From contig JAISYM010000079.1 in assembly GCA_031269875.1 (NCBI GenBank), positions 1-34,760 on the forward strand: DNA of 34,760 nt. The letters are read 5' to 3'. The notes under the pieces are model-generated. The model did not search any database. It saw only the letters and a program-made list of their open reading frames with translations, and was not told where the DNA came from. This stretch comes from Synergistaceae bacterium. Lineage in GTDB: Bacteria > Synergistota > Synergistia > Synergistales > Synergistaceae. A program made the position numbers and the translations under genes. Below, in pieces: positions 17,964-32,840 of the stretch (position 1 is its first letter; every line of letters starts with the position of its first letter).

Positions 17964-18878
17964 ATGAACAGCCAGTTTTGGCGGTCAAACCGCCGGAGGA
18001 TTCTGTCCGCCTCAGCGGCCGCGCTCTTTTGCTGCGCCCTTTTCACAGCTCCTTCCGGGGCCTTTGATCCTATAATCAACCCCAACAAGGTCGTGCGTAT
18101 TTCGGAGTTCGCAAACTCGCAGGCCGCGCAACTTCTGCTCGTGGTGCTGAACAGCTCTTTTTTGGCGCTCACGGAAGTTCCGCCGACGTGGGAAACATTG
18201 CGGTCGGAGACTTTGGAGGAGAGGGATGAAATCCTGCGCGCGAGCGTCATAGGAACATTCGACATGATTTTCACGAGCGATCGCGAAGCGGTTGATGACC
18301 TGTTCGATCAGGGTCTTCTGCAAGGCTTCTTTCCAGTATTTTCCGAGGAGATCGTGCTGGTAGGCCCGGTCTCGTCTGGCGACGCCGCCGGGATCGGCGC
18401 GGCAGGCGTTATGGGACGAATTTTCCGCGAGGGGACTCATTTTTTCTCCCTCATTACGAACGAATGGTCCTTAAAGGCGGAGTACGCCCTCTGGGAAGCC
18501 TCCGGCATAGAGGATCCCGGCCTTAACAAGAATTATGTGCAGTCGAGCAGGGACGATGTAACGGCTATGTTTCAGGCCGGCGACGAGGGGGCTTTCTTGC
18601 TGGTCGGCGAGGGTTCGTACGCCGCGTACCTTAACGCGCAGAGCTCGTCGCCGGTGCTGGAGAAGGTCGCCGGAACCGGCGTCTACAGAAAAAGTTACGT
18701 ATGCCTGGTCAAAAACTCCGGTTATAGAAAAGACCGCGCGCGGATAGCCGCCAAACTGGCGTCGTGGCTTATGAGCGACGAAGCTGGAATAGTCGTCGAT
18801 TCGTTCGATATCGCAGGCGTGACGCCTTTCCGCAGGACGCCCCTGTTTGCGGAAAAGCGGTCCGGCGGCGCGCCTTGA
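17964..18878 (+). CDS. Exported TupA-like substrate-binding protein with altered ligand site
   Basis: 304 residues with a signal peptide (about 1-33, ending SGAFD). The mature part aligns by eye with the tungstate-binding protein TupA: KVVRISEFANSQAAQLLLVVL matches the family's N-terminal strand and helix, GTFDMIFTSDREAVDDLFDQG matches the xxVDVVLTHxxxxE segment, VFSEEIVLVGPV matches MYNDFVVIGP, and KAEYALWEASGIEDPG with EGAFLLVGEGSYAAYL matches the C-lobe. The TTTST oxyanion-binding motif seen in the tupA gene at the right end of this window is replaced by ISEFANS, so tungstate binding is doubtful. No permease or ATPase gene is beside it. GAGAGGGG lies 12 nt before ATG 17964. Confidence 0.75.
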   Translation: MNSQFWRSNRRRILSASAAALFCCALFTAPSGAFDPIINPNKVVRISEFANSQAAQLLLVVLNSSFLALTEVPPTWETLRSETLEERDEILRASVIGTFDMIFTSDREAVDDLFDQGLLQGFFPVFSEEIVLVGPVSSGDAAGIGAAGVMGRIFREGTHFFSLITNEWSLKAEYALWEASGIEDPGLNKNYVQSSRDDVTAMFQAGDEGAFLLVGEGSYAAYLNAQSSSPVLEKVAGTGVYRKSYVCLVKNSGYRKDRARIAAKLASWLMSDEAGIVVDSFDIAGVTPFRRTPLFAEKRSGGAP

Positions 18879-18906
18879 CGCGCATGTAAGGGATAATATT
18901 TTGCGC

Positions 18907-18934
18907 TTGCCATATATCGGATGTACGATAGAAT
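18907..18934 (+). promoter_or_regulatory. Promoter upstream of the 18979 gene
   Basis: TTGCCA (18907-18912), a 16-nt spacer and TAGAAT (18929-18934) lie about 45 bases before the start codon, inside a roughly 100-base gap. Consensus match is fair. Confidence 0.5.
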
Positions 18935-18978
18935 CGTCTGGAGATGTAAAAAATATTTTCACGGAAAGGAAGTTTTTG

Positions 18979-20613
18979 ATGACAGCGACACAGCGCAGTT
19001 TACCCCCTTACGGAGTGACAGGGGCACGCAAAAAGCTCCTTCTTTTAACGATCTTAGCTCTTTCCGTTTTAATGGCAGCCGGCGCGGACGCCGCTTCGCG
19101 GGCGTCGCTCGCGATTTCGCCGCTCGTGGGCGACGACCCAGCCTATTTTTACGCCGACTTCCAGGACGCGGGCGAGATATCGCGGCGTCTTCAGAAATCG
19201 GAGACGCTGCGATTCATCTCCAAGCAGGCCGGCGAGGCGCTGAAAGGGATCCCCGCACGTGAAATTTCTCTCATGTTCTCCGTCTCCGGTGATGAGGCGC
19301 CCTCCTTTCAGATGGCATGGACACTCGAAGACGGCGGGAGCGAAATCCTCGGGAGGATAGCGTCGGCCAATGCCTCCACGGCCGAATTGGACAAGTTCTT
19401 CGGCAAGATTTGGAGCAGTGTCGCGGTAGAGGCCCCCGACCATGACGTCCCATTCTATCGGTTGAATCCATTCGGTTTTTATTTTTCCTCGAACGGAGAA
19501 CTGCTGGTATTCGCCAACAGCATAGAAGGCGTCAAAAAATCACTGCTGGCCACACTGAACGGCTATAAGCGCTTTTCCCCAAAGACGAAGTCTAACGGGC
19601 GCAATCTGATCCTTTGCGGGCTCGGGAAAGAGTATTCAGCCATCTTCGCGAATGAGTTCGCGGCCATTGCCGGGTTTCCGAGCGGCGCGCCTTTTCCGGA
19701 AAATATCTCTGTCGAAATGAACGCCGCCCTGCGGCCCGGAGGGTGGGAGCTCGATATTTTCACGGACGCGATCAAACCGCTTTATGGCGACGCCTTTTTC
19801 GAACACAGCGTCTCAAAGCCCACCGGGTCGTTCCGCAGGGCTGGTGGAGGAAGGCTCGTGGCCGCTGTCGACGGGATTGTGAACGGCGACTTGTTAGACG
19901 GCTACAATTTTATGCGGCTTCTTTCTTATTACGTCGGCGTGAAGGGCGAATGGGACGACCAGGCCCTCCAGAAATTCGCCGAGGGGGACACGGCGGAATA
20001 TATCAGGTCCGCGCTTTCGGCGGCCGGCCGGCTGAACTTCGCCGTTACATCGGCGCCTGACGGCAGACTGACAGCTTATGCCGCTGTTTTGGACAGCGCC
20101 GGGGATTGGAAGAGGGCGGGCGACGCGCTCTCTAAAGCACAGAGCGCCCGCCGTAAGACAAATTCTGATGAGGCCGTGAACGCGAAGGAGATACCTGACG
20201 ATGATTGGAACCACGTCTTCAGTATTGAGACCAAGGAAGCCGAATCGGGCAGTCCGGTGAGTGTCACCGCGGCCTTCGGGGATGACCGCGCGTTTATCGG
20301 TTTTATGCCGCCGAATGACCTGAAAGAACCATTCAGCGTGAAGTCGGAGTTTTACGAGAATCTGACGAAGAATGAGGGTGCGCTTGAAATTGTGTATGCG
20401 GATATGAAATTCCTGAGGCAGATTTTAGCGACGCGGCGGCATAGCGATCCAAGCGCGAGCTATGACTCGACTCTCACGGCCATAGCCACGATCCCCTTTT
20501 TGGATATCAGGGAAGTGGGTGCCCTGACCCTGTCACCGGAACATTTCAGGTTTATCTTCAAGACCGGGTGGCTCGATTTTGAGGATAGGGAATACGTCAA
20601 TACTATTATGTAA
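18979..20613 (+). CDS. Uncharacterised exported protein
   Basis: 544 residues with a signal peptide (basic KK at 18-19, hydrophobic core about 20-36, cleavage near ADAAS). The mature protein has repeating alpha/beta segments such as YFYADFQDAGEISRRLQ, FYRLNPFGFYFSSNGE and LVFANSIEGVKKSLLATLNG. That layout recalls DUF3352-type proteins, where a soluble domain repeats the pattern 'aaYxyvxdxxxlxxxL', but the resemblance is by eye only and weak. No catalytic motif, metal site or Cys pair is seen. The start ATG 18979 follows AAGGAAG at 7 nt; the upstream frame overlaps the previous gene. It has its own promoter. Confidence 0.8.
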   Translation: MTATQRSLPPYGVTGARKKLLLLTILALSVLMAAGADAASRASLAISPLVGDDPAYFYADFQDAGEISRRLQKSETLRFISKQAGEALKGIPAREISLMFSVSGDEAPSFQMAWTLEDGGSEILGRIASANASTAELDKFFGKIWSSVAVEAPDHDVPFYRLNPFGFYFSSNGELLVFANSIEGVKKSLLATLNGYKRFSPKTKSNGRNLILCGLGKEYSAIFANEFAAIAGFPSGAPFPENISVEMNAALRPGGWELDIFTDAIKPLYGDAFFEHSVSKPTGSFRRAGGGRLVAAVDGIVNGDLLDGYNFMRLLSYYVGVKGEWDDQALQKFAEGDTAEYIRSALSAAGRLNFAVTSAPDGRLTAYAAVLDSAGDWKRAGDALSKAQSARRKTNSDEAVNAKEIPDDDWNHVFSIETKEAESGSPVSVTAAFGDDRAFIGFMPPNDLKEPFSVKSEFYENLTKNEGALEIVYADMKFLRQILATRRHSDPSASYDSTLTAIATIPFLDIREVGALTLSPEHFRFIFKTGWLDFEDREYVNTIM

Positions 20614-20685
20614 GAGGTTTTGCCGCGCTTATACTGTGCAAATATGATTTCAAGCTGGTATGACAACTATACGGGAGGTCGTAAT

Positions 20686-21450
20686 ATGAGAAGTAAATTT
20701 AAAATCTTTTTTTGCGTTCTTTTCGCTGTGGTGTTCGCGTTATGCTTCACCGCGGAGAGCATGGCGGCCAATCAATATGAGAAGGCAATGGCAAGGTGGA
20801 GCAGACATGAGGAGTACCGCAACGATCTGGGGGGCGTGTTTTCCGTAAAAGCGACGCTTTATACGGTCGAGTACATTAACAACCTCATGGAGAGCGAAGC
20901 GGAGAAAAACCTCTGGACGGCGAGCGAGCTCGAGGATTACAAGTATAACTTCCTCAACAGCGTCAAAATCGACGAGTACCTGCCCATTTACCTGGAACTC
21001 GAAGAGCTGGGGCCGACAGCGCACATGGCGCCCTTTAACGAGATGATACACCTCTGGGTCGGAAATAAAAAATACGCGCCTGCCGAGTACGATCAACGCT
21101 TCAATTTCCCTCTTCAGGGCAAGAGGGACGGCATAGTCTATTTCCCGAGGTATGACGAGAAAACGGGGGCTTCTATCTTTAACAGGGACACAACGCTGCG
21201 ATTTGTGATGGTATCCGGCGCAAGCCCCGTTCTGGACTCGAAGGAGGTTCGCCTCAACTGGGACGTGAAGCAGGAGAATGTCGGCGTCCCGACCAGCGGT
21301 ACAGCCGCCGACAGGATGGAGATAGACCGCCTTCTCAGGAGAATGGAGAAGCTCTCCGGGGAGAAAGCGGAGTTGGAAACACAACTGGAAAATAAAAAGA
21401 ACGAGATAGACGAAATTAACGCCCGCATAGATGAGCTCCGGCGGAATTAG
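20686..21450 (+). CDS. Uncharacterised exported protein with C-terminal coiled coil
   Basis: 254 residues with a signal peptide (1-28, cleavage near SMAAN). The middle part is mixed and rich in Tyr and Glu (YTVEYINNLMESEAEKNLW; LPIYLELEELGP), with a probable beta-rich segment at about 140-195. The last 45 residues are a strong heptad coiled coil starting at DRMEIDRLLRRMEKL and ending in DELRRN, suggesting oligomerisation or a partner. I do not recognise the family. The start ATG 20686 follows GGGAGG at 7 nt. The gene ends 13 bases before the pfkA start and shares a transcript with it on spacing grounds. Confidence 0.75.
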   Translation: MRSKFKIFFCVLFAVVFALCFTAESMAANQYEKAMARWSRHEEYRNDLGGVFSVKATLYTVEYINNLMESEAEKNLWTASELEDYKYNFLNSVKIDEYLPIYLELEELGPTAHMAPFNEMIHLWVGNKKYAPAEYDQRFNFPLQGKRDGIVYFPRYDEKTGASIFNRDTTLRFVMVSGASPVLDSKEVRLNWDVKQENVGVPTSGTAADRMEIDRLLRRMEKLSGEKAELETQLENKKNEIDEINARIDELRRN

Positions 21451-25363: not shown

Positions 25364-25417
25364 GTTTTTTCATGATCTTTCTGACAGATGAATAACAGAA
25401 TTGCTGGAGAGTTCCTG

Positions 25418-26716
25418 ATGAATATTAAAAAAAGACCTTTTTTTATTATGTCAATCGTAATAACAGCCCTTCTGACATACAGCTGCGTCAGTCACGCGGC
25501 TAAGTCCTCCGGCGCCTATTGGACGAGTTTTGAATCGGAGGACGGATCAGACGCCGGAGTCTCCTCGGGTTTCATCGCCATAGACGCGATCGACGCGAGA
25601 AAAGAAGACCCGGTCAAGTCCGGGATAGGCCCTTTCCGCGGCAGCGGACCATCATTTGAAGACTCTGACGTTGTCTTTGAAGAGGAGCCGGAAGAACAGG
25701 CGCCCGAACGACATCGGGATGAGTCTCAGTTCTGGAAAGAGATTTCTGTGTCCGCCGGAGAGACGCTCTCCGCTATCTCGGAGAAACACGGCTTGACGAT
25801 AAAGGACATTATGACCGCAAACGAACTGACCGACCAGCACAAGCTCAGGGAGGGGCAGGGCTTGTACATTCCCCTGAGCAGGGACTTCGTCCTCGAGACG
25901 CTTTCGCACGTCCGCGAACTCAAGGAGGAGGCAATCAAAAAAAGGAAATATACCGCGCCGGTCAAGGTTACAAACTATGTGATAATGAACGGCGACACGC
26001 TTTGGAAGATCGCTAACGCGTTCGACCTCGACGTAAACTCTCTCTTCGGCAGCAATAAGATATCCGAAACAGACGTGCTGAAGGTAGGTTCCACGATCAG
26101 GGTACCAAACCAGGATGGGGTATTTGCCGCGGTTAAATCAGGACAGACCGTGAAGAGCCTGGCCGCTGAATACGGAATATTCGAGGAAGCTATCCGGTCG
26201 GCCAATGAACTCTCCGCGGACGCCGTCCTCACCAAGGGGAGAGAGATATTCCTGCCCGGCGTGAAAATAATGGCTTTTGTGGAGACGCAGAAGGGCCGAA
26301 AGGCTGTCGTAAAGGAGAAAGTAGGCGCGGTAAAGGGATTTGGATGGCCGGTGGTCGGCAAGATATCGAGCTCCTTTGGATGGAGAAAGGACCCTGTACG
26401 AGGAGGCAGAGACTTTCACACGGGCCTGGATATCAGAGCCCCGCGCGGCAGGCAGGTCGTCGCGTCATCGGCTGGCAAGGTCGTTCACTCCGGGTGGATG
26501 GGCGGTTACGGCAAGACGGTCGTCATCCAGCATCCCGGAGGCGTCACGACGCTGTACGGCCACTGCAGCAAACTGCTCGTCAAGGCAGGGACGAATGTCC
26601 GCAGGGGTGAGCGGATCGCTCTTGTGGGAAGCACTGGCAGATCAACGGGAAACCATGTACACTTCGAAGTGCGTAAGGGCGGTTCTCCGACGAACCCTCT
26701 TAAGGTACTCCGCTAA
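25418..26716 (+). CDS. LysM-domain M23 peptidoglycan endopeptidase
   Basis: 432 residues, exported (basic KK at 4-5, hydrophobic 8-20). A Cys at 23 in LTYSC could be a lipobox but the -3 position is Thr, so lipidation is uncertain. An acidic linker (80-105) precedes three LysM repeats: about 108-152 (SAGETLSAISEKHGLTIKDI), 186-230 (NGDTLWKIANAFDLDVNSLF) and 235-280. The M23 domain starts near 310 (GWPVVGKISSSFGWRKDP) with zinc ligands H334 and D338 in FHTGLD and H415 in NHVHFE, plus H382 and H413, all present, so it should cut peptide crosslinks. NlpD/EnvC-type proteins that activate cell-wall amidases lack some of these ligands. The start ATG 25418 follows GGAGAG at 6 nt. Confidence 0.9.
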   Translation: MNIKKRPFFIMSIVITALLTYSCVSHAAKSSGAYWTSFESEDGSDAGVSSGFIAIDAIDARKEDPVKSGIGPFRGSGPSFEDSDVVFEEEPEEQAPERHRDESQFWKEISVSAGETLSAISEKHGLTIKDIMTANELTDQHKLREGQGLYIPLSRDFVLETLSHVRELKEEAIKKRKYTAPVKVTNYVIMNGDTLWKIANAFDLDVNSLFGSNKISETDVLKVGSTIRVPNQDGVFAAVKSGQTVKSLAAEYGIFEEAIRSANELSADAVLTKGREIFLPGVKIMAFVETQKGRKAVVKEKVGAVKGFGWPVVGKISSSFGWRKDPVRGGRDFHTGLDIRAPRGRQVVASSAGKVVHSGWMGGYGKTVVIQHPGGVTTLYGHCSKLLVKAGTNVRRGERIALVGSTGRSTGNHVHFEVRKGGSPTNPLKVLR

Positions 26717-26735: not shown

Positions 26736-28346
<1,611 letters not shown>

Positions 28347-28438: not shown

Positions 28439-29461
28439 ATGAAGCGCTTTGCGATCATCTCTGCCGCCGTATTTTTCTTGGTTTTCGCGACATTTTCCGG
28501 GCGGTCATTCGCCGCGGATGATAATAACGATCCTGAAAGGCTTCCGCTGCAGGGCCTGGAAAAGGTGGAGAGCATCGTTTACGGCTCGCCCGGCACTGGC
28601 GGGCTGCTCCTTCGCCTTTCAAAAGTAGAGCGCGATCTTTTCGGGATGGAACTGCCCGGCAGTCTCACGGAGAGGCAGACGGCGCTCGAGAACTTTGTCG
28701 AAAAGGGGAATTCCGGCCAGCCCTCGCTCCTTTTCAAGACCGCCATCGCGGAGTGGGTCACCCTTAAAAGGGTTAATTCGGCGATGTCACTGATCGATAG
28801 GGTGAATACGCTCGAACAGACGCTTGAAGGCGAACCGCAGATTGGCGCGCTGTCGGCCAGAGTCGAGAGGCTCATTTCAAAGCTCATGCCAAACGGTGTA
28901 AGCGCTGTTTCGGTGAGCGTGCCCGCCAATACCGTCATGAAAACTAAATTTATAAACACGCTGACTGTCCGTAACGTAAAAAAAGGCGACTCGGTCGCGC
29001 TTGAAATCACGGAGGATTGCGTAATAGGCGGTTCGCTCGCGGCGGCAAGAGGCAACAGGCTATTCGCGGAGGTCACGAAAGTGCGGATGCCTCGGAGTTT
29101 CGGACGCCCCTCCGAGATAGAGGTCGGGTTTAAGAATATTGAATTTATCGACGGATCGACAGCGGAAGTCTTTATAGGCCCGGAGTCGAAAAAAGCTATG
29201 GAGGTCGACTCCGCGACGATAGGCGCTGCCGGCGCGAGCGTGGCGGGGGCCGTCCTTCTCGGGCCGGTCGGACTAGCGGGCGGTTTCCTCGTCCGGGGGA
29301 GCGATAAGCAGATCAAGGAAGGTACTTTGGTTTTCGTGGAAACTTCCGCGGCTTCGAGCATTATGGGGTATCAAATCCCGGCGCTCGTCCTTCCGGAAGT
29401 TGTGGACTCCACGTCGTCTTCTCCGTCCGGAGTAGAGCCCGGCGTAGATGTCTTCGAATAA
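28439..29461 (+). CDS. Uncharacterised exported protein upstream of lptC/lptD
   Basis: 340 residues with a signal peptide (1-26, ending SFAAD). A charged helical part (about 35-150; LPLQGLEKVESIVYG, NSAMSLIDRVNTLEQTLEG) is followed by a beta domain (about 161-248) with SVPANTVMKTKFINTLTVR, EDCVIGGSLAAARGNRLFAEV, PRSFGRPSEIEVGFKNIEF and DGSTAEVFIG. That pattern ('VxxGxxVPKGT ... GRPGxIxIxFxxI') recurs in many bacterial exported proteins of unknown role. A glycine- and alanine-rich hydrophobic stretch lies at about 262-286, then a Ser/Pro-rich tail. ATG 28439 follows GAGGAGGAA at about 10 nt. It overlaps the next gene by 14 bases. Confidence 0.75.
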   Translation: MKRFAIISAAVFFLVFATFSGRSFAADDNNDPERLPLQGLEKVESIVYGSPGTGGLLLRLSKVERDLFGMELPGSLTERQTALENFVEKGNSGQPSLLFKTAIAEWVTLKRVNSAMSLIDRVNTLEQTLEGEPQIGALSARVERLISKLMPNGVSAVSVSVPANTVMKTKFINTLTVRNVKKGDSVALEITEDCVIGGSLAAARGNRLFAEVTKVRMPRSFGRPSEIEVGFKNIEFIDGSTAEVFIGPESKKAMEVDSATIGAAGASVAGAVLLGPVGLAGGFLVRGSDKQIKEGTLVFVETSAASSIMGYQIPALVLPEVVDSTSSSPSGVEPGVDVFE

Positions 29462-30632
29462 GACTCGATTTACGGTTAACCGCCGCGCGCTCCTGGCGGT
29501 CATTGCCGCGCTGGCGCTCTTTGCCCTTCCGGCCGCGGCTGACGACAGGAGCGACGCTTTGGCGTTGCTCGACCAGCGAACCGCAATCCGCTGGGGAGAC
29601 GACAACCTGACGTGGGTGGTTCACTATACCGACAGATTTGTAGATTTATGGGTGAAATCCGAGGCGGCTCGGCAAAGGATGACCGCCGCGCAGGAAGACG
29701 CTTACCGAAAATCATTTACGGATGAACTTAGGACGAACGCCGCCACCGCCATACTGCTTTCCGTTCACGCGTTCGGTCAGGAGCCTCTCTCTTTGGCGCC
29801 TCTTTCGAAGAATATCGCGCTCCTTGACGCGTCAGGCAAGCGGATAAGCCCGATAGCTTTTGAAAAGAAACTCGACGGCCCTCTGTCAGGCCTCATGCAG
29901 GGGCTGGTGTTCTTCCCAAAACAGGAGAGCGGCGACTTCAAGATTGCGGTCAAGGGATTGACGAGGGAAGGAGAGACCGTTTTCTCTTTTTCGGGTCAAA
30001 ACGCGCCGCAGGCCATTGCGACGGCTGTTCAGGGCCGGACAAGCCAGCCAAGCCAGCTAAGCCAGCAAAAACCTCCGGTGCCGCAGACAAAGGAGACCAT
30101 CGTTAAAATTCCGACCGCGAAGCCAGCCGCGCCAATAACGCCGCAGCCGCCGAACTCGCCAAAAAATCCGGAACCTCCCGAGCGGGCAAAATCCGCCGAG
30201 CCGGCACCTGAGATATTTCCGCCCGCTGCCCCCAACGTGCCGGCGGCGCCCGAATTGGCGCCTCCGGTGATTTTGTACCCGTCTGATGATGAAAAGATCC
30301 AAGAGCCGCAGCAAACGCAGACGCGCTCAACGTCAAACGCGGCCCGCGCGGAGGCGCTAGACTCGTATCTCCGGGCCTGGATAAACGGGGACGTCGACAG
30401 GATGTACTCTCTCTTGTCGTCAGAATCTCAGGGCAGGATATCGCGCGAGCTTTTCACGCGGGAGATCCTGTCCGACGGTTTTCGCAAAGGGCTCAAGGAG
30501 GGCTACAAGGTCAACTGGCAGGGGGATTCGGCGCAGGTAACGGTCTCCAGACGGCTGCTCTTTATGAAGACGCTTGACAGCAAGCGGATTAATTTCGTGG
30601 AGGAAAACGGTTTAAATCGTGTATCGTGGTAA
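29448..30632 (+). CDS. Uncharacterised exported protein with Pro-rich linker and NTF2-like C-terminus
   Basis: 394 residues with a signal peptide or anchor (about 12-32, AADDRSD after it). An N-terminal domain (35-185) includes DNLTWVVHYTDRFVDLWV and ALLDASGKRISP. A linker at about 195-281 is rich in Pro, Ala and Gln (SQPSQLSQQKPPVPQ; APITPQPPNSPKNPEPPE) and could span the periplasm. The last 95 residues (ALDSYLRAWINGDVDRMYSLL ... VNWQGDSAQVTVSRRLLF) have the helix-then-sheet plan of NTF2-like/DUF4878 domains. Function is unknown. ATG 29448 overlaps the upstream stop; its own stop overlaps the lptC start by 14 bases. Confidence 0.75.
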   Translation: MSSNKTRFTVNRRALLAVIAALALFALPAAADDRSDALALLDQRTAIRWGDDNLTWVVHYTDRFVDLWVKSEAARQRMTAAQEDAYRKSFTDELRTNAATAILLSVHAFGQEPLSLAPLSKNIALLDASGKRISPIAFEKKLDGPLSGLMQGLVFFPKQESGDFKIAVKGLTREGETVFSFSGQNAPQAIATAVQGRTSQPSQLSQQKPPVPQTKETIVKIPTAKPAAPITPQPPNSPKNPEPPERAKSAEPAPEIFPPAAPNVPAAPELAPPVILYPSDDEKIQEPQQTQTRSTSNAARAEALDSYLRAWINGDVDRMYSLLSSESQGRISRELFTREILSDGFRKGLKEGYKVNWQGDSAQVTVSRRLLFMKTLDSKRINFVEENGLNRVSW

Positions 30633-31152
30633 AATCAAACTGCTCTTGGCAATCGCCGCGATCCTTGCGCTCGCGTTTTACATAAGGCGCGATATGAACC
30701 TCACGCCGGACTTCACTCTCGGGGACTTGCCGGACGTGTCCGTGGAAAACCTGGATTTCAGGCGGAGGATCCGAAGCAGGGACTGGCATCTTCGCGCGAA
30801 AAGGGCGGAACATGACTCTGGCGTGATAAGGGCTTTCGAAATGGAGATAGACGTGAGCGAAGCGGATTCCGACGGACTGATGTCTCTGCGCGCGTCAAAC
30901 GGCGAGTTCTCAGAGGCGGATTACTTTCTGGAGGTAAGGTCGCTCGACGGCGTTCTCTTTCGGGACGGCAGGAGCATGGACGTTCTGGCGCCTCAAGCGA
31001 GCTACGAGAGATCGCCCGATGTTTGGTTGTTTAACCGCGGCATAGAGCTTTGGGATGAAAAAACATATATCAAGGGCGGGATGGCGGCCATAGCCAGCGA
31101 CGGTGTCTTTGTCCTTTGGAAAGGGGCTTATGTCTCTTGGGCTGTAGAATGA
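30619..31152 (+). CDS. lptC: LptC-type LPS export protein
   Basis: 177 residues. A single N-terminal membrane helix (about 5-22) anchors a periplasmic OstA-like beta-jellyroll: LDFRRRIRSRDWHLRAKRAEHD, DGLMSLRASNGEFSEADYFLEV and VLAPQASYERSPDVWLFNRG are the repeated strands of the LptC/LptA fold. LptC receives LPS from the inner-membrane LptBFG complex and passes it along. The start GTG 30619 overlaps the upstream gene; the stop overlaps lptD as ATGA. LptC is poorly conserved, so the family call rests on the fold-like pattern, membrane helix, size and position next to lptD. Confidence 0.8.
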   Translation: MYRGKIKLLLAIAAILALAFYIRRDMNLTPDFTLGDLPDVSVENLDFRRRIRSRDWHLRAKRAEHDSGVIRAFEMEIDVSEADSDGLMSLRASNGEFSEADYFLEVRSLDGVLFRDGRSMDVLAPQASYERSPDVWLFNRGIELWDEKTYIKGGMAAIASDGVFVLWKGAYVSWAVE

Positions 31153-32840
31153 ATGGATCGCGTACTTATGCGCTCACAGTTGCAATAACGCTTGTTTTTT
31201 TACTTTTTGCCCCTGAAATCGCCGCTTCGGCCGAGATTAAGCTGGATGCGGACAGGATATCGTTCGAGGAGACCAGCGGTGTCGCGATTGCCGAGGGAGA
31301 CGTCAAGATTTCAAATGAGGAGATAACAGTCCTCGCCCCATACATGGAATACGACAGCTCAACAGAGAGCGTGAGGGCGGCATCGACCGCCGAGGGCGGC
31401 GTCACGCTCATGTCCGCCGGTACGAGGATAAACGGGGAGAAGCTCGACTACAATCTCTCTACCCGCAGGGGAATCTTTACGAAGCCGAACGGCAGGGTCG
31501 AGGCGTTCTTTGTGAAGGGCGCGTCCATCGAGGTCATGCCTCTCTCCGACGTGACCCGCTATTCGCCGAAGGGCGGGGCCAGCGCCGAGGAACAGGCGGC
31601 CAAGTGGAGCGGCGCCGTCATCACGACCTGCAACTATCCGCACCCGCACTATAGGTTAGAGGCAAAGGAGCTCTCGGTAATCCCAAACAGGAGGATCGTA
31701 ATAAGGAAACCTAAAGTTTACCTTGGAGAGACGCTGATATTTACATACCCCTTTGACTTTGTCTCGAATATTGGAGCGAAATCCCGTTTCAACAAACGTT
31801 CCATTTTCCCTAAGATTGGGTACGAGTCCGACAAGGGCGTCGGAATAGGCCTATCAGGGCCGTTTGTCTGGGATACCGGCGAACTCGGCCTCGAAGCGAT
31901 ATGGTGGAGCCAGAACATCTGGGAGGGCGGCGCTCTTCTGCAGCAGGAGGTGCTGCCCGGCGTGACCGCCTTTGGAAACCTCGCCAGAACGCATGACAAG
32001 GACAGGGATGAAACGCTCTGGCGCTCTAAGTGGGGATTTTGGTATGACGGCGACTGGCAGTTCGAGGCCGCATGGTCCGAGAGGGAGCTTGTGACGGTTG
32101 AGAAGTCCGCCGGCAGAGATTCGCGGTACGTGGTCTGGAGGAAGCCGGAGCTGAACATCGTCAGCCCCTGGATCGACGATCGCGCCGCGTCCGGCAGGTA
32201 CCGCCTGATGGGAAGCTGGGGCAAATATGAGGACGCTAGTTCCGGCGGCGGACAGCCCTCGATCGAGAGATACGGCGCTGGGGTTCAGATTGAGGGTTCA
32301 TTCGGGAACCAGTCTAAAAATTTCGAGCCCTTTTATAACGCTATTTACTGGTATTACAACTACGGCAGCTCAGAGTCGACAGAATCCGGCACGCAGCAAA
32401 TCGCGAACGCGATGCTCGGCGCCAAATGGAAGCTCGGAGACTTTGACATGGAGAGCGCTTACCTCAGGCGATGGGTATGGGGCCAGTCACCGATGCTCTG
32501 GGATAGCTACGAGCCGAGGGAAGATGTCTATCAGCAAATCGGCGTTACGATCCCCACCGGCTCGCCGGATTTTTGGTGGCGTCTCGCTCTCCGGGGCGCG
32601 TACAGCCTAAAGGACGACACGATGGCAGAAATGCTCTACAAGGTTCTCTACAACCAGCACTGCCTGCAGTGGGAGGTTATCTACCGGGATGACATGAGCG
32701 GAGACGATAATTGGGTAGGGCTCAAGCTGACCATCAACGCTTATCCTGATTCGAGCGTTCATCTGGTGGGTAGTGACCCATTCGAGCCCTCCACCGCTTC
32801 GGACAAGTTCGTTCCCGATTTTATAAAACGGCGGCCATAG
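31149..32840 (+). CDS. lptD: LPS-assembly outer-membrane protein LptD (short form)
   Basis: 563 residues with a signal peptide (1-27, IAASAEI). Residues about 29-130 are an OstA/LptA-like domain (IKLDADRISFEETSGVAIAEGDVKI). From about 150 the sequence matches LptD: ITTCNYPHPHYRLEAKEL with conserved C161, VYLGETLIFTYPFDF and FPKIGYESDKGVGIG, then aromatic-rich beta-strands to the end. LptD inserts LPS into the outer leaflet. It is short against the usual 750-800 residues, which would mean fewer barrel strands or shorter loops, and only one Cys is obvious in the N-terminal part. It indicates an outer membrane. No lptA gene is beside it. Confidence 0.85.
   Translation: MNGSRTYALTVAITLVFLLFAPEIAASAEIKLDADRISFEETSGVAIAEGDVKISNEEITVLAPYMEYDSSTESVRAASTAEGGVTLMSAGTRINGEKLDYNLSTRRGIFTKPNGRVEAFFVKGASIEVMPLSDVTRYSPKGGASAEEQAAKWSGAVITTCNYPHPHYRLEAKELSVIPNRRIVIRKPKVYLGETLIFTYPFDFVSNIGAKSRFNKRSIFPKIGYESDKGVGIGLSGPFVWDTGELGLEAIWWSQNIWEGGALLQQEVLPGVTAFGNLARTHDKDRDETLWRSKWGFWYDGDWQFEAAWSERELVTVEKSAGRDSRYVVWRKPELNIVSPWIDDRAASGRYRLMGSWGKYEDASSGGGQPSIERYGAGVQIEGSFGNQSKNFEPFYNAIYWYYNYGSSESTESGTQQIANAMLGAKWKLGDFDMESAYLRRWVWGQSPMLWDSYEPREDVYQQIGVTIPTGSPDFWWRLALRGAYSLKDDTMAEMLYKVLYNQHCLQWEVIYRDDMSGDDNWVGLKLTINAYPDSSVHLVGSDPFEPSTASDKFVPDFIKRRP

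Follow-up and report, generated by a model that had tools for sequence, protein, structure and literature searches.

The contig JAISYM010000079.1 of a Synergistaceae bacterium (GenBank assembly GCA_031269875.1) was analysed over positions 1 to 34,760 of its forward strand, and these 34,760 nucleotides are called the window throughout. The window contains four consecutive genes: two encode exported proteins, named here open reading frame (ORF) 1 and ORF2, and the other two are lptC and lptD. We tentatively propose, with slightly less than even confidence, that ORF1, ORF2, lptC, and lptD form an operon, ancestral in Synergistota, that serves lipopolysaccharide (LPS) export at its outer-membrane end, with ORF1 as the partner of LptD. 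The coupling of ORF1 to lptC/lptD is genuine and old, with ORF1 as the core partner and ORF2 as a frequent but dispensable one. ORF1 most probably acts together with LptD at the outer membrane, a function and a partnership that we infer, the latter from gene order. The four genes are as follows.

28439..29461, + strand: ORF1, ATG start; a 340 amino acid exported protein found throughout the phylum, almost always as a single copy, upstream of lptC/lptD
29448..30632, + strand: ORF2, ATG start; a 394 amino acid exported two-domain protein
30619..31152, + strand: lptC (divergent), GTG start; PF06835 is found in its orthologues
31149..32840, + strand: lptD (short, 563 amino acids), ATG start; profile matches to LptA/LptD structures

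The evidence begins with a survey of 121 Synergistota genomes at least 90% complete, the window's own included, with E-value thresholds of 0.001 for ORF1 and 1e-10 for LptD. ORF1 is present in 119/121 and LptD in 117/121. Wherever both lie on one contig (112/112 testable genomes), lptD is on the same strand, 0.6-4.04 kb downstream; in this neighbourhood survey ORF1 is thus nowhere scattered away from lptD, in keeping with the original prediction, which had the two exported genes coupled to lptC and lptD. Among the remaining genomes, five have ORF1 and LptD on different contigs, and two (G085, G105) have ORF1 only. G050 and G130, both more than 90% complete, are without ORF1 and LptD alike, with joint loss and a missing contig indistinguishable; G050 keeps LpxC and LptF/G. 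For this count, the LptD piece on ORF1's contig was used in G078 instead of the larger piece on another contig, the first piece was used where LptD is in pieces (G060, G124, and G125), and the better of two ORF1 places was used in G114. The places counted include two fragments (ORF1 in G131, LptD in G066).

A set of 60 genomes, again including the window's own, gave ORF1 matches in 56 (a fragment in G021) and LptD matches in 56 (weak in G050); gene order was compared on the 55 with both, the weak LptD places of G047, G050, and G055 being excluded. ORF1 and LptD share contig and strand in 54/55, with LptD 0.6-2.6 kb downstream, and lie on two contigs in G051. The space between them holds ORF2 in 31 of the 54, a third exported gene that we call ORFx in 23, both in 18, and neither in 18. 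In these last 18/54 genomes the ORF1-LptD distance is 0.6-0.9 kb, and so ORF1 remains beside lptC-lptD even without ORF2 and ORFx. The linkage claimed for ORF2 therefore stands in part: it is in the operon in 31 of the 54, but elsewhere in 3 and without a strong match in 20. These placements count a single strong ORF2 place in each of 35 genomes (E at most 2.1e-25); weak matches to the N-domain were excluded, as were further strong places in G040 and G042.

Finer detail comes from named loci, the best 80 of 111 relatives of the locus, all of them titled as Synergistota or as genera belonging to that phylum, and many of them metagenome-assembled Synergistaceae. As the search patterns were built from conserved Synergistota peptides, absence outside Synergistota is not provable from them. 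LptD lies downstream of ORF1 in 66/80 and in 60/61 of those that extend 3 kb or more downstream, the single exception having an ankyrin-repeat gene array in the LptD position. The gene order from ORF1 to lptD is far above chance expectation. In all three genomes outside the order (family f11), pyrG-ORF1-ORF2 is followed by an lptC-sized ORF and an LptD relative. Identity to the window is 34% for ORF1 and 25-27% for ORF2; the LptD relative was found by profile in 3/3 and by tblastn in 2/3, and the ORF of 179-188 amino acids in the lptC position is assigned by size and place, tblastn giving no LptC match. The arrangement therefore looks ancestral to the phylum. Searches beyond bacterial chromosomes gave nothing for ORF1: a plasmid search had no match at E ≤ 1, and among 17 pattern matches in a scan of viral contigs there was no true relative.

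The order also persists around insertions between ORF2 and lptC, where the flanking genes are kept. Ankyrin-repeat genes sit there in L115, L120, L121, L123, L124, and L139, mostly from ruminant-gut Synergistota; several have signal-like N-termini, and in L124 they are in tandem. Short genes that look by eye like toxin-antitoxin genes occupy the same place in L112, L116, L118, L125, and L138.

The overlaps from which joint expression was originally argued, 14 bases for ORF1/ORF2, 14 for ORF2/lptC, and 4 for lptC/lptD, are exactly as described. They are local: among named loci holding both genes, the respective pairs overlap in 21/59, 20/51, and 38/56, as counted with automatically chosen starts. 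Scans of the locus for sigma-70 promoter and terminator consensus sequences returned nothing exceeding shuffles, and a hairpin between pyrG and ORF1 (-21.4 kcal/mol, z -1.53) was set aside as evidence, 20/200 shuffles being equally good.

We turn now to the proteins themselves. Alignments were built from part of the complete frames (ORF1 from 69/80 loci, ORF2 51/62, LptC 54/70, LptD 33/66), each with the window sequence added. The N-termini of ORF1 and ORF2 both read as signal-peptide-like, as had been suggested. The ORF1 model (70 sequences; mean predicted local distance difference test score, pLDDT, 84.5; predicted template-modelling score, pTM, 0.78) has six helices over residues 36-149 and a beta domain over 156-312, with these parts:

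28544..28885, + strand: ORF1 residues 36-149, six-helix domain (model and conservation)
28907..29374, + strand: ORF1 residues 157-312, beta fold resembling the VirB10 C-terminal domain (Foldseek, VIA-align, profile-profile comparison)
29210..29293, + strand: ORF1 residues 258-285, Gly/Ala/Ser-rich uncharged stretch with LLGPxGL, in the VirB10 antenna-helix position

The helical domain apparently consists of two three-helix repeats with the motif VYG..GGL..RL..VE.DLFG.ELPGS, as read from the sequence. For the C-terminal half, a predicted fold like that of the VirB10 C-terminal domain is supported by the model together with a profile match. All of the top 21 Foldseek rows are type IV secretion entries, mostly titled VirB10, ComB10, or CagY; the best has E 5.3e-4 and a template-modelling (TM) score of 0.25 by query and 0.39 by target, for a predicted model. 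Within residues 156-316, VIA-align gives Z 9.7-6.1 for 14 type IV secretion system (T4SS) entries (102-122 residues, root-mean-square deviation (rmsd) 3.5-5.0), and the next, unrelated row has Z 3.4. By hhalign, ORF1 against 16 VirB10 sequences scores 31.7 (E 0.00044, register 157-236); 200 column shuffles stay at or below 24.5 (0/200 reach 31.7), the reversed profile scores 19.3, and the profiles of ORF2, LptC, LptD, ORFx, and the helical half of ORF1 score at most 17.0. An earlier comparison with 6 VirB10 sequences (4/10 loci without a usable frame had been left out) was weak, with P 0.0078; that set was too shallow, and the comparison was redone with the second set of 16.

The likeness is thus to the VirB10/TrbI C-terminal domain of T4SS outer-membrane core complexes (TraF, TrwE, ComB10, CagY, DotG). 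Passages of PMC6536674 and PMC4182333 describe a two-helix antenna of VirB10 that forms the outer-membrane pore. In its place, as far as strand order can be read, 70/70 ORF1 members carry a 25-30 residue segment that lacks D, E, K, R, N, Q, and H and is half Gly/Ala/Ser; it is shorter than the antenna and Gly-rich. ORF1 further differs in having a helical domain where VirB10 has its N-terminus. We do not class ORF1 as a VirB10, because Pfam TrbI (PF03743) fails to detect it: TrbI is absent from the matches of the 70 ORF1 proteins at E ≤ 1, and a PF03743 search of the 60 genomes at E ≤ 0.1 detected no ORF1 locus and had no match in the window's own genome. Pfam and NCBIfam gave chance-level matches only across the ORF1 members, leaving ORF1 with no confident match to an unrelated family; TraM-type conjugation models appear weakly in 3/70 members per library (best 0.13 in Pfam, 0.033 in NCBIfam).

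From this fold one might argue that ORF1 was once a type IV secretion subunit, or is a sister of one, and builds a separate outer-membrane channel for some other substrate, sharing only a transcript with lptC/lptD. The VirB10-type fold, the profile match, and the uncharged antenna-position segment in every member speak for this. Its conserved neighbours, however, are rho, M23, pyrG, lptC, and lptD rather than T4SS genes, the TrbI family misses it, and its N-terminal half is modelled as helical; we regard this explanation as improbable. Membership of ORF1 in a T4SS was considered and rejected, there being no T4SS context and no TrbI match. VirB10/TrbI genes spanning nearly the whole family model do occur in 7/60 genomes (G001, G014, G021, G029, G032, G035, and G037), so type IV secretion proteins coexist with ORF1 in the phylum.

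The identity of the two downstream genes rests largely on their families. Window lptC alone has no Pfam match, and a six-frame PF06835 search of its own genome finds none; it is identified because its orthologues match Pfam LptC (PF06835 in 24/55 at E ≤ 0.1, best 1.3e-6). The LptC family profile weakly matches the LptA structure 8onu (E 0.0011), and the window protein has a hydrophobic N-terminus, read from the sequence. The LptD family profile matches LptA 8onu (3.4e-9), LptD 7omm (4.5e-4), and LptD 8h1r (0.0019, over 39-239), and the LptD_N/OstA domain PF03968 is found in 26/34 members at E ≤ 0.1. Window LptD has only two Cys, residues 161 and 505 (31629-31631 and 32661-32663), both invariant in 34/34; the pair suggests an inter-domain disulphide, recalling the inter-domain disulphides of E. 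coli LptD. The LptD barrel family of Pfam has no match to the barrel part among the 34, and three members match the cyanobacterial DUF3769 (best 0.0067), a family termed LptD in a passage of PMC4365693.

ORF2 has a different build (52 sequences, pLDDT 80.5, pTM 0.50):

29544..29987, + strand: ORF2 residues 33-180, immunoglobulin (Ig)-like beta sandwich, nearest to YjhA/MPT63-type secreted domains
29988..30329, + strand: ORF2 residues 181-294, Pro-rich low-confidence linker of 114 amino acids, 23% Pro versus 2% outside
30330..30629, + strand: ORF2 residues 295-394, NTF2-like domain of MecA_N type (PF05223, structure match)

The Ig-like domain has no Pfam match to such a domain in the 52 members; VIA-align places it near 3cfu (YjhA, Z 10.4), 1lmi (MPT63, Z 8.7), and 4eae (Z 8.6). 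The linker ranges from 71 to 147 amino acids (median 99.5) over 52 members. PF05223 matches 46/52 members at E ≤ 0.1 (best 8.7e-6); the window protein itself reaches 17.6 bits, under the cut-off of 22, and its NTF2-like domain resembles the N-domain of PBP2a (VIA-align Z 10.0). ORF2 thus has the MecA_N/NTF2-like module as its C-terminal domain, but joined by the Pro-rich linker to an Ig-like domain, and no transpeptidase domain was found. The beta domain, Pro-rich linker, and NTF2-like end once ascribed to the pair are all present in the ORF2 model, but they are not common to ORF1 and ORF2, and the idea of one beta domain type in both proteins fails, the VirB10-type domain of ORF1 and the Ig-like domain of ORF2 being unrelated. 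The beta domain that does recur in the window is that of ORF2, in a paralogue gene at 20620-21450 (match 20689-21156, 25% identity, E 6.8e-9). This paralogue is exported and has a coiled-looking C-terminal tail, and many relatives have similar second copies; upstream of it, at 17964-20613, are two more exported-looking proteins, the first of which looks by eye like a phosphate-binding-type periplasmic protein.

ORFx is an exported protein of 139-152 amino acids with 66% mean column identity (22 members). It lies between ORF1 and ORF2 or lptC in 24/80 named loci (e.g., L103:8990-9424), and in the 54 compared genomes it is in the operon in 23, elsewhere in 19, and without a match in 12. Over the full set, 45/60 genomes have a match; the four genomes of the window's genus are all among the 15 that lack one. 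ORFx did not turn up in the three family f11 outgroup stretches either, and a family search gave best E values of 0.11 in Pfam and 0.069 against PDB sequences.

The surroundings of the operon are also conserved. Two upstream genes give context, outside the claimed unit:

26736..28346, + strand: pyrG, conserved upstream neighbour
25388..26716, + strand: LysM/M23 endopeptidase-like gene (Pfam), conserved neighbour

In the testable named loci, pyrG is upstream of ORF1 within 2.2 kb in 73/74, an M23 match is upstream in 61/61, and rho is kept nearby in 37/55. Conservation at this level might be that of a frozen housekeeping neighbourhood (rho, M23, pyrG, ORF1, lptC, and lptD) whose members are functionally unbound. 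The retention of rho and M23 would fit, but the order outlasts the ankyrin and toxin-antitoxin-like insertions as well as the deep divergence of the outgroup (34% identity in ORF1), and it breaks down directly after lptD, where a radical-SAM gene follows in 2/47 loci. We find this account very improbable.

A more serious competitor, though on balance somewhat unlikely, is that ORF1 and ORF2 are general envelope proteins, concerned for example with outer-membrane-cell-wall linkage or outer-membrane stability, and merely co-expressed with lptC/lptD, M23, and pyrG. The invariable LysM/M23 match upstream is to its credit, as is the generic binding character of NTF2-like and Ig-like domains. Rate covariation (partial rank correlation over 45 loci and 76 branches) was calculated for the genes of the block: LptC-LptD gives 0.43 and M23-pyrG 0.42, and ORF1 covaries equally with M23 (0.26) and LptD (0.27, p 0.006), which also fits a general envelope role. 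Such a role does not sit well with the 18/54 genomes in which ORF1 keeps its short distance from LptD without ORF2 or ORFx, nor with the lack of any Pfam cell-wall-binding domain in ORF1. The original suggestion of lineage-specific envelope or LPS-transport accessories is compatible with these data; what it observed is confirmed in part, and its interpretation is partly supported.

The rest of the pathway was followed in 40 genomes. LPS is made and transported, since LpxC is present in 38/40 and LptF/G in 38/40, the latter as a single match in 37 and split over two contig-end pieces in G041. At E ≤ 0.1, 39/40 genomes have an OstA-domain match, with LptD's own domain counted; a fused or replaced LptA was ruled out by a separate OstA-type frame of 297 amino acids in the window's own genome (G000:C51).

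Should ORF1 indeed serve LptD, the steps might run as follows. ORF1 and ORF2 would be exported to the periplasm, and ORF1 would settle against the outer membrane from the periplasmic side, its conserved Gly-rich stretch perhaps inserting into the membrane like the VirB10 antenna. There it may hold, fold, or plug LptD, the task of LptE in proteobacteria; no LptE was found here. ORF2 would be a dispensable helper whose linker spans part of the periplasm between two binding modules. ORF1 would then occupy the slot of LptE, as the outer-membrane partner of LptD, but it is not a lipoprotein, and its modelled fold differs.

It is important to set out what weighs against this role for ORF1. The conserved block also includes pyrG and M23, so linkage alone cannot single out LPS. 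Rate covariation does not separate the rival explanations and goes partly against a specific bond between ORF1 and LptC: the ORF1-LptD value stands against 0.48 for ORF1-pyrG, the ORF1-M23 value already given, and 0.02 for ORF1-LptC. ORF1 has no similarity to LptE and no LptE-like lipobox in the first 40 residues of its 70 members; window ORF1 has a single Cys (residue 194) and window ORF2 none, and 26/70 ORF1 members are Cys-free. LptE is fast evolving and poorly conserved. A search for PF04390 gave a hit in 0/40 genomes at E ≤ 0.01, and the control search was positive in only 3/14 genomes, so that, given this fast evolution, the absence of LptE by Pfam is weak. The fold match rests on a predicted model, and the hhalign probability for ORF1-VirB10 is only 33%. 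Foldseek has E ≤ 0.001 in only 4 rows, and the top 20 have TM-scores of 0.21-0.25 by query (0.20-0.25 over the first 21) and 0.28-0.41 by target with rmsd 14-28; the modest TM-scores are perhaps due to the additional domain in the model and a differing loop. The Gly-rich stretch is modelled mostly as coil with pLDDT below 50 (261-287), and its 25-30 residues are few for two complete membrane crossings.

Outside the phylum, the closest precedent is found in Veillonella. In the portion of PMC5007114 drawn on here, a survey of diderm Firmicutes found a single LptF/G and did not detect LptD/E, and part of PMC8871954 states that lptD and lptE were never found in atypical diderm genomes, with Synergistetes outside that survey's main tree. 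Later, according to sections of PMC5491611, the LptD of Veillonella parvula (Vpar_0647) was found, with Vpar_0645 and Vpar_0646 encoded upstream; these two are uncharacterised, were in the outer-membrane fraction, and are suggested by the authors to be LptE equivalents, and Vpar_0646 and lptD are syntenic through the Negativicutes. As in the window, two uncharacterised envelope proteins are encoded directly upstream of lptD, a likeness of gene order and description. Our literature search returned no paper coupling "VirB10-like" with "LptD".

How LPS is delivered to the outer membrane in non-proteobacterial diderms is open, and here a divergent LptD is present in nearly every Synergistota genome surveyed, along with a fixed partner gene. 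A wider view would have Synergistota LptD work with a VirB10-type outer-membrane protein as an LptE-like partner or collar of the LPS translocon, with the Negativicutes proteins encoded beside lptD as its relatives and one alternative LptD partner common to deep-branching LPS diderms; we consider it unlikely that all of this holds. With its predicted T4SS-type fold, ORF1 offers a direct candidate, open to testing, for the outer-membrane half still missing from the LPS transporter; the fold also suggests that secretion and lipid export share an outer-membrane domain through common origin or reuse.

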